Shown: positions 23,023 through 26,758 of the stretch, in pieces
Numbering within the stretch: the stretch's first letter is position 1
Layout: every line of letters begins with the position of its first letter
Virus record (IMG/VR): IMGVR_UViG_3300033183_000214
Coordinates: 1 to 27,487 of that record
Source of the DNA: a virus
Length of the DNA: 27,487 bases
Reading direction: 5' to 3' (one strand)
The notes under the pieces: generated by a model
What the model saw: the letters and a program-made list of their open reading frames with translations, nothing else
What the model was told of the DNA's origin: nothing
Database searches by the model: none
Program-made: the position numbers and the translations under genes

Positions 23023-25350
23023 ATGGATAACACAAAAACAGACAAAACACAACAACCCGAAATCGACCAACGTGAAACGTTCATTCGGTTCATCAAAAGA
23101 AAACACCGCGACGTTTCGGGATATATTGAATTACGCCCTTGTTTTGAATACCGTCAGGGAATTGACACGAACGCCCGTCGTTGGTTCACCCCCGAAGAAT
23201 TCATCGAAAAATCACCGATGTTCCTTGAATACTGTCGCCGTCATCGTTTGGGCGCGTTCGCGGGTGTGTTGCCCCGTTCGGAAAAGGGACGCGGAACCGC
23301 TGATTCAGTCGAATCGGGTGGTGTTTTGTGGGCGGATATAGACGACAAGGATCACAATGGTTCCCGCGATGTTGTGTGGACGTTGGTTCGTTCGTTACCC
23401 GTCCCCCCTTCCGTTGTGGTACAATCAGGGGGTGGATTACATTTGTATTTCTTTCTAAACACCGAATACCCCGCCGATGAAATCGCCGAAATGAATGAAC
23501 GTATCGCGAAAAAGTGTGGGGGTGATTCCTGTCATGACAAGGCGCGCATTTTGAGACTACCAACATCATTCCACCAAAAGAATCCCGACAATGTTCAATT
23601 CGTTCGGTTCGTCGAATACGATGAATCAATCGAATATACGTTAGACGAATTGTCACCGCTATTCCCACCCGTCGAAAAGTCGAAAATTATCAAGGCGACG
23701 AAAATCGTTCACATCCCCGTTCCAAAACTACCCGACGAAATCCGTCAAATGATGAACGAACATGTTCGATTGAATGAATTGTTCGAAGGTATTGGGAAAA
23801 CAGGTGGTGACACATCGGGGACGGGGTATGATTTCGCGTTCGCGAAGGAATGCGCGTGGTTGGGAATCCCCGCCGACAAAATATGTGACGCGTTGGCGGT
23901 TCGGATTGCGAAACGTGGAAAACGGAAGGGTTCAAATTATATCCTTCGAACCGTCGGTCGTGCCGTCGCCGTCATGGAACAACGGAAAAACGAACCGATT
24001 GACGTCACACCAACGAACAACATTCAGGGCGACGCGAATGTCGTTTTGGAATTGGACAGGTTCCCCGACAATCATCGCGACCCGTCCAAACGAAACCGTC
24101 CGAAAATGACATCGATGAATCTTTATCGCATTTTGACCCTTGACCCGATTTTCGCGGGTTCACTACGGTTCAACGCGTTCAAAAATCGAATCGAAATCGC
24201 CTTCAATGCGACCGACATTCGACGCGGGACATTTCAGAAAATCGCCGATGTCCATTCCAAAAACCTTCGTCATCAGGTCGCGCGAAATTATGGACTTGAA
24301 TACAAAAAGGACGTTATGAACGATGAAATCCAATTCGTCGCACATGAAAACACCGTTCATCCTGTTCGAGAATACCTTGAATCATTGGAATGGGACGGGC
24401 GCGAACGAATCGATCATTGGTTGACGGATTGGGCGAACGCGGAAATCACCCAAATCGGGGAACATCCCGACGGAACCCCAATCACAAATGAACGTTTGAT
24501 TTCCCAATTCGGACGAAAGTTTTTGATTTCGGCGGTCGCGCGGGTGATGAACGCGGGGTGCAAGGTGGACACGTCTTTGATTTTGACAGGGAAACAAGGC
24601 GCGGGGAAATCGACGATTTTCAAGGTATTGACCAAAAATCCCGAATGGTTTCGCGATTCATCAATCAACGTCAACGGCGGTCGGGACGCTTATTCGTTAT
24701 TGTCGGGGGTGTGGATATATGAGTTTGCCGAATTGCAAGCGACCCGAACAAGGGACGCGGAATCCGTCAAGGCGTTTCTGTCATCCTGTTCGGATTCATA
24801 CCGTCCCGCGTATGCACATTATGACGTGGACGTCCCCCGTCAATGTGTGTTTGTCGGGACATCCAATGAAACGGAAATCCTACGCGACCCAACGGGGAAC
24901 CGTCGGTTTTGGGTTGTTCGGGTCACTGACGACATCGATTTGAACGGGTTCGCGAAAATGGTTGACGCGTTGTGGTCGGAAGCCGTCCACGCGTACAAAC
25001 AGGGGGAACGGTGGTGGTTGGATGACGATATCGATTCGATGTTCACCGAACATTCAAACCAATTCCAATCTTCGGATTCATGGACAACTATTTTCGAAAA
25101 TTGGTGGGATACCCTAACGCCTGACGTGAAACATGTGTATAATACGAACGGGTTGACATCGTTACACGTTTTGACTTCCGTCATTGGTTTGGAAGTGGAC
25201 AAAATCGGGCGACATCATGAAATGCGGGTCGGGGGTATTCTCAACGGTTGCGGTTTTGTGAAACGTCGTGTTCGGGTTACGGTTGAAACGTCGAAGGGAA
25301 CCAAAATGAAACGGGTATACAAGTATTTTCATCAAGGGGATGACGAATGA
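23023..25350 (+). CDS. Primase-helicase: AEP primase domain fused to VirE-type ATPase
   Basis: A 775-residue replication protein. N-terminal archaeo-eukaryotic primase: the acidic motif WADIDDKD (D105, D107), SGGGLHLYF (135-143, with the catalytic-type His140), and RILRLPTSFHQKN (175-187). Together these resemble the DxD, sxH and third motifs of plasmid and phage AEPs. A linker (about 230-360) contains a small helical region of PriCT character (FAFAKECAWLGIPADKICDA). The C-terminal part is a P-loop ATPase of the VirE/D5-like group: Walker A GKQGAGKST (523-531), Walker B-like GVWIYEFAEL (562-571), and QCVFVGTSNETEILRDPTGN with RRFWVV (about 607-632), the conserved asparagine and arginine segments. 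It probably primes and unwinds at the phage origin. RBS AGGA in TACAGGATAAAACATG. Coupled by ATGA to an HTH gene. Confidence 0.9.
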   Translation: MDNTKTDKTQQPEIDQRETFIRFIKRKHRDVSGYIELRPCFEYRQGIDTNARRWFTPEEFIEKSPMFLEYCRRHRLGAFAGVLPRSEKGRGTADSVESGGVLWADIDDKDHNGSRDVVWTLVRSLPVPPSVVVQSGGGLHLYFFLNTEYPADEIAEMNERIAKKCGGDSCHDKARILRLPTSFHQKNPDNVQFVRFVEYDESIEYTLDELSPLFPPVEKSKIIKATKIVHIPVPKLPDEIRQMMNEHVRLNELFEGIGKTGGDTSGTGYDFAFAKECAWLGIPADKICDALAVRIAKRGKRKGSNYILRTVGRAVAVMEQRKNEPIDVTPTNNIQGDANVVLELDRFPDNHRDPSKRNRPKMTSMNLYRILTLDPIFAGSLRFNAFKNRIEIAFNATDIRRGTFQKIADVHSKNLRHQVARNYGLEYKKDVMNDEIQFVAHENTVHPVREYLESLEWDGRERIDHWLTDWANAEITQIGEHPDGTPITNERLISQFGRKFLISAVARVMNAGCKVDTSLILTGKQGAGKSTIFKVLTKNPEWFRDSSINVNGGRDAYSLLSGVWIYEFAELQATRTRDAESVKAFLSSCSDSYRPAYAHYDVDVPRQCVFVGTSNETEILRDPTGNRRFWVVRVTDDIDLNGFAKMVDALWSEAVHAYKQGERWWLDDDIDSMFTEHSNQFQSSDSWTTIFENWWDTLTPDVKHVYNTNGLTSLHVLTSVIGLEVDKIGRHHEMRVGGILNGCGFVKRRVRVTVETSKGTKMKRVYKYFHQGDDE

Positions 25351-25610
25351 AGGGATTCACAATCGAAGGGAAAACGGTTTTCGGAAAATGGGTGGCGACA
25401 TATTGCAATCATAACCGAATCACACCGCGTCAATTATACGATCATACAGGAATCAAGGCGCGAACAATGCAACGGATTTTGAAGGGGGTCACGTCCCTGA
25501 CGGATGTCGATTTGTTTTGGATTATCGGGTCATTGTCTGATTTGACAGGTGACGACCCGATTCAATTGGGTGAACACGTTGTTCGGTTGTATCTCACCAA
25601 ACAGAAATAA
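25347..25610 (+). CDS. HTH regulator (FG-x5-Y family, member 3)
   Basis: An 87-residue protein coupled to the primase gene by ATGA. FGKWVATY (residues 12-19) starts the domain; RITPRQLYDHTGIKARTMQR with ILKGV is the helix-turn-helix (about 24-48), and SLTDVDLFWIIGSLSDLTGD closes it. The recognition helix is of XRE type but with M-Q-R instead of T-V-x-x-W. It is the last gene before a terminator and the TGTCCCTACC iteron array, making it a good candidate for the iteron-binding or copy-control protein. That link is inference from position. Confidence 0.7.
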   Translation: MKGFTIEGKTVFGKWVATYCNHNRITPRQLYDHTGIKARTMQRILKGVTSLTDVDLFWIIGSLSDLTGDDPIQLGEHVVRLYLTKQK

Positions 25611-25680: not shown

Positions 25681-25712
25681 GGGGCGATTTCCTTCGGGGG
25701 GTCGTCCCTTTT
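25681..25712 (+). terminator. Strong UUCG-capped terminator after the primase operon
   Basis: GGGGCGATTTCC (25681-25692) folds back on 25697-25708 into a continuous 12-bp stem with several G-U pairs. It is closed by a C(UUCG)G tetraloop (25692-25697) and followed by TTTT (25709-25712). It ends transcription 70-100 bases after the HTH gene and directly before the iteron array, isolating that region from primase transcripts. The same UUCG cap is used after the capsid gene. Confidence 0.75.
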
Positions 25713-25719
25713 CGTTGTG

Positions 25720-25973
25720 TGTCCCTACCTTGTCCCTACCTTGTCCCTACCTTCCGAAATAGGTTGGGACACCATATCGTTTCGATTGTATCGACGTTAT
25801 CCAATTTGTGTCCCTACCGTCCTAACCTATTTTGGAAAAAGATAGAAAAATGTACAATCTGAAATATTGCACAAATTACAGTCTATTGGAAAAAGGTGGG
25901 GACAGGTAGGGACACCGCCCGTCGTTGTGTGTTATAATGTCGAACGCGTCGACGTTGTGTGTGTGTCCCTACC
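25720..25973. repeat. Iteron array TGTCCCTACC: candidate replication origin or operator region
   Basis: Perfect TGTCCCTACC copies lie at 25720-25729, 25731-25740, 25742-25751 (11-base period), 25809-25818 and 25964-25973. One perfect inverted copy is at 25905-25914. Degenerate inverted copies are GGTTGGGACA (25762-25771) and GGTGGGGACA (25895-25904, abutting the perfect one). An AT-rich stretch (about 25828-25894, with GGAAAAAGATAGAAAAATG) lies between them. Iterons plus an AT-rich element beside a primase-helicase gene is the layout of a replication origin. A promoter overlaps one iteron (25909-25938). The gene-free stretch 25611-26033 otherwise shows no coding sequence with a ribosome site. 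Confidence 0.7.
25909..25938 (+). promoter_or_regulatory. Putative promoter overlapping an inverted iteron
   Basis: A perfect -10 TATAAT (25933-25938) lies 18 bases after GGGACA (25909-25914), a -35-like element matching four consensus bases, which is also the end of the inverted iteron. A protein binding the iterons would therefore cover the -35 region and control the genes from 26034 on. The transcript would begin near 25945 and cross the last forward iteron (25964-25973). Confidence 0.55.
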
Positions 25974-26033
25974 TTGTCAGGATTTGGACAACATCACCCG
26001 ACGTTCAATGTTGTGTTATGATAGGTGGTGAAC

Positions 26034-26288
26034 ATGTGTGAAATATGCGGTTGTGATCCCTGCGATTGTTGGGATTGGTTCGGGGGGAATAATGGCGAAA
26101 CGACAAAACATTCGGATTTCGGGACGGGTACGAAACAACCGTATCGAACGGGCGATTCCGATTTTCATGAAACGATTCGGGTTCGAAGAAGATCAAGCGA
26201 CCGCCGTCGCGATTCGTATGGAATCCAAAAATCAATTACAAGTCGACGGGGAACCAATCGACAAACCGAAGGACGTTCCGCGCGGTGA
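26034..26288 (+). CDS. Cys-rich mini-ORF, frame broken near a G6 run
   Basis: ATG 26034 follows a good ribosome site (AGGTGG). The first 18 residues, MCEICGCDPCDCWDWFGG, contain five Cys in CxxC-x-C-xx-C-x-C spacing, a metal-binding pattern that is unlikely by chance. After the G6 run (26082-26087) the frame continues to 26288 as a low-quality shadow of the next gene. With five Gs the Cys motif would fuse in frame to the next protein; with seven it would end in a stop overlapping that gene's ATG (TAATG). So either the homopolymer was misread, the site frameshifts, or this is a short metal-binding leader peptide. The true extent is probably 26034 to about 26090. Confidence 0.45.
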   Translation: MCEICGCDPCDCWDWFGGNNGETTKHSDFGTGTKQPYRTGDSDFHETIRVRRRSSDRRRDSYGIQKSITSRRGTNRQTEGRSAR

Positions 26289-26461: not shown

Positions 26462-26758
26462 ATGAAACGTCGAACAATGAATCCGAAAGTCGTCGCGCGT
26501 ATGAAATGCAACGTCGCCCGTCCAATCCGAAGGGGTGAACCCGCGTTCGGTAAAAAGAAAATGGTCGTCAAGGCGTGCAAAGGAAAAGAACAAAAGATTG
26601 TTCGATTCGGTGCGGTTGGATACAAACATAATTATTCCAAACGTGCGAACGAATCGTTTCGGGCGCGTATGCAATGCGACACAAAACCCCCGTCAATCCT
26701 TTCGGCGCGTTATTGGTCGTGCGAACGGTTGTGGAAAAAACGGAAGGGTTCCAAATGA
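26462..26758 (+). CDS. Conserved phage protein with FRAR-x-x-CD ... ARYWSC motif
   Basis: A 98-residue protein starting one base after the previous stop, with GGAAATGAT as leader. A basic N terminus with CNVARPIRRGEPAFGKKKMV is followed by VKACKGKEQKIVRFGAVGYK, and the signature ESFRARMQCDTKPPSILSARYWSCERLW. The pattern 'K-x-V-x-x-F/YG ... (S)FRAR-x-x-CD ... (S/K)ARYWSC' is familiar to me from small, uncharacterised proteins of many marine and aquatic phages; no function has been established to my knowledge. Paired cysteines around the motif could bind metal. Overlaps the RusA gene by ATGA, so it may act in DNA processing together with it. Confidence 0.65.
   Translation: MKRRTMNPKVVARMKCNVARPIRRGEPAFGKKKMVVKACKGKEQKIVRFGAVGYKHNYSKRANESFRARMQCDTKPPSILSARYWSCERLWKKRKGSK

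Follow-up and report, generated by a model that had tools for sequence, protein, structure and literature searches.

The array of nine iterons lying 3' of a VapE-type primase-helicase gene in the window (the whole stretch of DNA analysed here, 27,487 bp) is very probably the replication origin of this tailed phage, judged by its sequence, and of the initiator-helicase kind found in P4, SaPI/PICI and Sfi21, since its layout matches the origins of P4, Sfi21 and SaPI-like islands. The same layout, written with another repeat word, adjoins related genes in many phages and prophages. A candidate origin beside the primase-helicase had been proposed in an earlier, sequence-only reading, and this part is supported by the homology of the neighbouring protein to PriRep1, by a geometry shared with P4 and Sfi21, and by the arrays found 3' of the gene in most related VapE loci. 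Two further parts of that reading, a helix-turn-helix (HTH) product as the iteron binder and a promoter coupling replication to downstream expression, did not stand.

The iteron array and its surroundings

Nine copies of an 11-bp word occupy positions 25720-25974 (255 bases), arranged in two arms around an AT-rich stretch (table 1). The exact decamer TGTCCCTACC is present on the + strand at 25720, 25731, 25742, 25809 and 25964, and on the - strand at 25905. These five forward and one inverted copies, together with two degenerate inverted ones, had all been correctly recognized from the sequence, but the ninth copy, CGTCCTAACCT at 25818-25828, had been overlooked. A search of the whole record returned no exact TGTCCCTACC elsewhere, so that the decamer, whose wider occurrence had been suggested as a check, is confined to the array; likewise, no second iteron cluster was found in the record, which may be incomplete. 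The presence of one 10-mer six times within 301 bp (25700-26000, either strand) is the maximum for the record, and among 1,000 dinucleotide shuffles of this segment no 10-mer occurred more than twice on either strand. The AT-rich stretch reported among the iterons is also confirmed, its AT content lying at the 99.8th percentile of all 65-mers in the record.

The right arm of the array is incomplete, with three copies: the outer ones have either decayed or been lost, and 60 bp instead of 48 bp separate the inner pair from the single copy. Owing to these imperfections, the array by itself displays no significant mirror symmetry when exact matching is required (four sites paired, equal to the shuffle mean). 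The possible decayed outer copy listed in table 1 was picked up neither by the repeat scan nor by the position-weight scan.

The array starts 370 bp past the primase stop codon, from which it is separated by an HTH open reading frame (ORF) and a terminator. As had been read from the sequence, it directly follows the terminator of the primase operon, a hairpin of 12 pairs with a T tail, and a terminator is found at the equivalent position in the nearest relative described below (L011). GC skew, proposed as a check for the origin, climbs steadily through the array region with no switch at the array; it gives no support to the origin and was rejected as an argument for it.

The promoter said to use the inverted iteron as its -35 element is indeed present, with an exact TATAAT at 25933-25938, but its -35 (GGGACA, 25909-25914, inside the inverted iteron) matches at only 4/6 positions, and 1.5 promoter-like matches per region are expected by chance. 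Moreover, no comparable promoter was found inside the array of L011 (primase 61% identical), and the proposal of a self-regulated promoter coupling replication to the downstream unit, which comes from a single sequence, is not retained. As the promoter spans iteron 8, an initiator bound at the origin could block transcription from it, an idea that likewise derives from this one sequence.

Further downstream, TGTGTTATGAT at 26012-26022 precedes the gene at 26092 and resembles the -10 element at 25928-25938. This site may be a conserved promoter of the 26092 gene, because L011 has TGTGTTATCAT upstream of the homologue of the same gene. The next stretch, 26462-26758, encodes a 98-amino acid product matching part of phrog_220 (minor head and DNA pilot protein), despite its location in the replication region.

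Table 1. Coordinates of the array and of neighbouring features in the window.
Feature	Position	Strand	Remarks
VapE-type primase-helicase, 775 aa; PriRep1-like initiator, proposed origin binder	23023-25350	+	PF05272, E 1.2e-71
Codons for C-terminal winged helix (approx. residues 686-770), proposed iteron reader	25078-25332	+	AlphaFold model
Cro-like HTH ORF, 87 aa, not needed by the origin model	25347-25610	+	HTH_26, weak, E 0.038
Intrinsic terminator of the primase operon	25681-25708	+	12 pairs, 4-nt loop, T tail
Iteron 1, outer left arm	25720-25730	+	TGTCCCTACCT, exact
Iteron 2, outer left arm	25731-25741	+	TGTCCCTACCT, exact
Iteron 3, outer left arm	25742-25752	+	TGTCCCTACCT, exact
Iteron 4, left arm, single inverted copy	25761-25771	-	TGTCCCAACCT; degenerate 10-mer TGTCCCAACC at 25762
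Iteron 5, left arm inner pair	25809-25819	+	TGTCCCTACCG
Iteron 6, left arm inner pair	25818-25828	+	CGTCCTAACCT, PWM score 13.2
AT-rich stretch between the arms, proposed melting site	25829-25893		75% AT versus 53% for the record
Iteron 7, right arm inner pair	25894-25904	-	TGTCCCCACCT; degenerate 10-mer TGTCCCCACC at 25895
Iteron 8, right arm inner pair, also holds promoter -35	25904-25914	-	TGTCCCTACCT, exact
Promoter-like site	25909-25938	+	GGGACA - 18 bp - TGTTATAAT; extended -10; 10/12 consensus bases
Iteron 9, right arm, single opposite-strand copy	25964-25974	+	TGTCCCTACCT, exact
Possible decayed outer right-arm copy (weak, speculative)	25980-25990	-	TGTCCAAATCC, 7/11
First gene downstream of the array, conserved in L011	26092-26460	+	Homologue in L180/L011

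The primase-helicase and its winged helix

The primase-helicase is related to SaPI PriRep1 (PDB 7pds) both in sequence (phmmer E 6.4e-37; profile E 5.5e-96) and in fold (Foldseek E 1.3e-27; VIA-align Z 32.4 over residues 338-775, winged helix included). Its last approximately 90 residues are predicted to form a winged helix, with helices followed by a two-stranded beta hairpin (AlphaFold, pLDDT approx. 90). In SaPI Rep and Cch2, it is the C-terminal domains that bind the downstream iteron origins (PMC7581432). Across 33 divergent loci, the distance between iteron words was correlated to the distance between winged helices when the helicase core was held constant (partial r 0.27, p 0.001), whereas with the winged helix held constant it was not correlated to core distance (partial r 0.095, p 0.15). 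The word thus tracks the winged helix and not the core, matching the prediction for a C-terminal reader and in line with the published findings on SaPI Rep and Cch2. At the other end of the protein, six viral contigs (L329-L334) share solely the N-terminal primase part with it, which suggests domain swapping of the primase module.

Arrays beside related primase-helicases

For the comparison, both flanks of VapE were scanned for the short repeat of highest density in 80 loci of viral contigs and 66 loci of bacterial genomes. Arrays of at least six copies were detected 3' of VapE in 25 of the 33 non-redundant viral clusters and in 37 of the 66 genomic loci, and never 5'; at this threshold, the other eight viral clusters and 29 genomic loci are without an array. 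Iteron words differ from locus to locus and include TGTCACCAACC, GGTCCCAACCT, TGTTCCCACC, TGTCCCACCT and GGTCACCCC, among others. The seed-based arrays of three loci (L193, L207 and L213) were dropped as wrong or low-complexity.

The nearest relative found (L011 = L180) has a primase 61% identical to that of the window and an array in the equivalent place, whose left arm reads + 11 + 10 + 11 + 20 - 46 + 9 + (strands, with spacings between them) and whose word is TGTCCCRAAC, not TGTCCCTACC. The array of this relative was defined with a hand-chosen seed (as L011), the seed-based call made for it as L180 being discarded. No closer relatives were retrieved by a search with the window clade alone. 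The word TGTCCCTACC itself is retained in a phage of 68% GC (L007) with a helicase approximately 35% identical. There, the array (L007:6397-6624) lies within the coding sequence at the 3' end of VapE, and its iterons thus encode the initiator's C-terminal tail.

Exact copies of TGTCCCTACC are also present on two AT-rich phage contigs (L009:122-433 and L010:14191-14513), in a divergent four-and-four layout adjoining a VRR-NUC gene and the terminase. No initiator was found on these contigs, where it may lie past the contig end, and both were left out of the comparison because of this and of their divergent layout. As a marker for VapE, TGTCCC at 11-bp spacing was tried and rejected: at least 120 viral contigs carry it, versus 46 in the reversed control, and they include two further phage groups, but just one of these contigs encodes VapE, and VapE loci cannot be recognized by the short core alone. 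In 20 loci (L032:1005-1149, L035, L037, L044, L098 and others), tandem same-strand copies of TGTCCCGCT, 11 bp apart, sit inside the gene of an approximately 358-amino acid replication-like protein without clear Pfam family; as judged from these genes, the TGTCCC core is used there by an unrelated initiator. Approximately 33 other loci (L012, L015, L021, L062, L086 and others) on viral contigs display a near-fixed TGTCCCTATGGT array, terminated by a TGTCCCTNAGGGACA palindrome and located close to a gene for the small terminase, with no VapE within the fetched stretch. The exact decamer TGTCCCTACC was also tried as a text string in the literature, and the matches listed were unrelated, apparently chance primer-like strings.

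A shared arm geometry

What is common to the related arrays is an arm, in which outer copies are followed after 17-22 bp by one inverted copy and after a further 33-50 bp by an inner pair, beyond which comes the AT-rich centre and, often, a mirror-image arm. The left arm of the window reads + 11 + 11 + 19-21 - 46-48 + 9 +. In 48 collapsed loci, the arm core was detected 23 times, versus 5.5 (s.d. 2.1) in shuffles, and a converging mirror pair nine times, versus 0.01; as the spacing ranges were chosen after viewing the arrays, these counts describe a pattern and do not amount to a blind test. The left arm of the window fits the P4 ori arm, as do only 26 of 20,000 shuffles of the window's gaps and strands, and its inner six sites fit the Sfi21 origin, as do nine of 20,000 such shuffles, with tolerances that were in both cases also set after viewing the data.

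On balance, we are inclined to think that a single two-arm origin blueprint is common to VapE- and D5-type primase-helicases, be they from phages, prophages or satellites, and that its geometry is fixed while the word is rewritten with the winged helix. In this blueprint, outer direct copies would stand 9-11 bp apart, 17-22 bp would lead to the inverted copy and 33-50 bp to the inner pair (8-10 bp apart), and the two arms would face each other across approximately 75-115 bp of AT-rich DNA. If geometry is indeed fixed and the word changes in step with the winged helix, the protein should allow its word to be predicted, and the free words would provide natural protein-word pairs for learning winged-helix specificity. 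A spacing rule extending from P4 and Sfi21 to uncultured phages would, if true, likewise help to locate origins in metagenomic phages and serve as a ruler for modelling how two self-loading hexameric helicases assemble on duplex DNA and melt it. A search of the open literature gave no paper describing where VapE phages start replication; judged against this literature, the combination of a constant two-arm geometry and a word that varies freely may be new.

Proposed mechanism and alternative explanations

At the putative origin, the winged helices of the primase-helicase would bind the iterons, each arm would nucleate one hexamer, and the two hexamers would face each other across the AT-rich stretch. 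The facing hexamers could then melt 25829-25893 and load themselves for bidirectional unwinding, with the fused N-terminal domain of the same protein acting as primase.

Could the repeats be instead an operator array that is bound by the 87-amino acid HTH product or another phage repressor and regulates the embedded promoter together with the downstream unit? The HTH ORF immediately precedes the array, and a promoter with an extended -10 overlaps an iteron. However, this ORF is common solely to the window and its nearest relative, whereas such arrays span 49 loci in which VapE is the sole protein family clearly common to all, so that the HTH product is an unlikely iteron binder, contrary to what had been suggested. 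Since, in addition, the promoter is not conserved in L011 and an operator needs no nine-site P4/Sfi21 geometry with an AT-rich centre, we consider an operator array very unlikely. It appears highly improbable, too, that the array serves partition or incompatibility (as a parS-like site or as copy-control iterons), with the initiator binding it but replication starting elsewhere. Such a role is brought to mind by P4, whose type 1 repeats occur in both ori and crr, and a second site could be missing from a record that may be incomplete; yet the order of the array is that of the P4 ori arm and not of crr, its AT-rich centre lies between two arms, an arrangement also seen in the origin annotated for Sfi21, and the record holds no second cluster.

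The array also lies 1.5 kb from the end of the record, with TerL starting at 997, a proximity on a circular map that would suit a packaging site (pac/cos-proximal) or an assembly-end artefact. We give this explanation almost no credence, as related arrays adjoin VapE well within contigs and chromosomes, whatever lies beyond, and no terminal repeat was found at the record ends.

Comparison with known origins

Among the known systems closest to the presumed origin are the SaPI/PICI Pri-Rep-ori modules. In PICIs, two iteron sets flank an AT-rich region 3' of the initiator (PMC6092414), and the window shares with them a homologous helicase with a C-terminal winged helix (SaPI1 Rep = PriRep1, 7pds), an origin 3' of the initiator gene and two iteron sets around an AT-rich stretch (PMC6092414, PMC7581432); that is, a PriRep/VapE-family neighbour, the 3' location and both sets are found, the right one with three copies. 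The iteron word differs, and in the window an HTH ORF and a terminator stand between gene and origin. Furthermore, PICI satellites have no capsid or tail genes of their own, whereas the record is that of a full tailed phage, in which TerL, portal, head, tape-measure and endolysin genes were recognized. An origin layout termed unique to PICIs (PMC6092414) would extend to ordinary tailed phages.

In P4, the type 1 repeats annotated in ori by the depositors comprise three direct, one inverted and two direct copies with spacings of 10, 11, 22, 43 and 10, i.e. the same strand order as the left arm of the window and near-equal spacing. In sequence, the P4 word (TGTTCACC) is similar to TGTCACC and TGTTCCCACC, two words of the family. 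However, ori as annotated in the P4 record contains a single arm of this type, with further repeats approximately 5 kb away in crr, whereas both arms of the window flank one AT-rich stretch; no counterpart of this separate crr was found in the window's possibly incomplete record. The initiators differ as well, since P4 alpha displays D5_N/Pox_D5/Toprim domains and the window protein has VapE instead.

The origin of Sfi21 (AF115103 34487-34784, about 300 bp) is annotated as non-coding and directly 3' of the helicase gene, and we located its GTTAC sites as - 44 + 8 + 76 - 8 - 46 +. These spacings compare with 48, 9, 76, 10 and 60 for the inner six sites of the window, which thus shares with Sfi21 the inner pairs, the 76-bp centre, the single flanking copies and the position 3' of a helicase gene. 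The word (GTTACT) and the helicase (Pox_D5/DUF5906, not VapE) are different.

Origins of iteron plasmids of the RepA/RepE class also combine short direct repeats with an AT-rich region, but their initiators load the host DnaB and their repeats are single-sided, whereas in the window the protein adjoining the array is an SF3-type hexameric helicase in its own right, and the iterons are split between two arms. This kind of origin is already known from P4, SaPI/PICI and Sfi21, and what the window very probably adds to it is a case in which the initiator is of VapE type and the tailed phage is uncultured.
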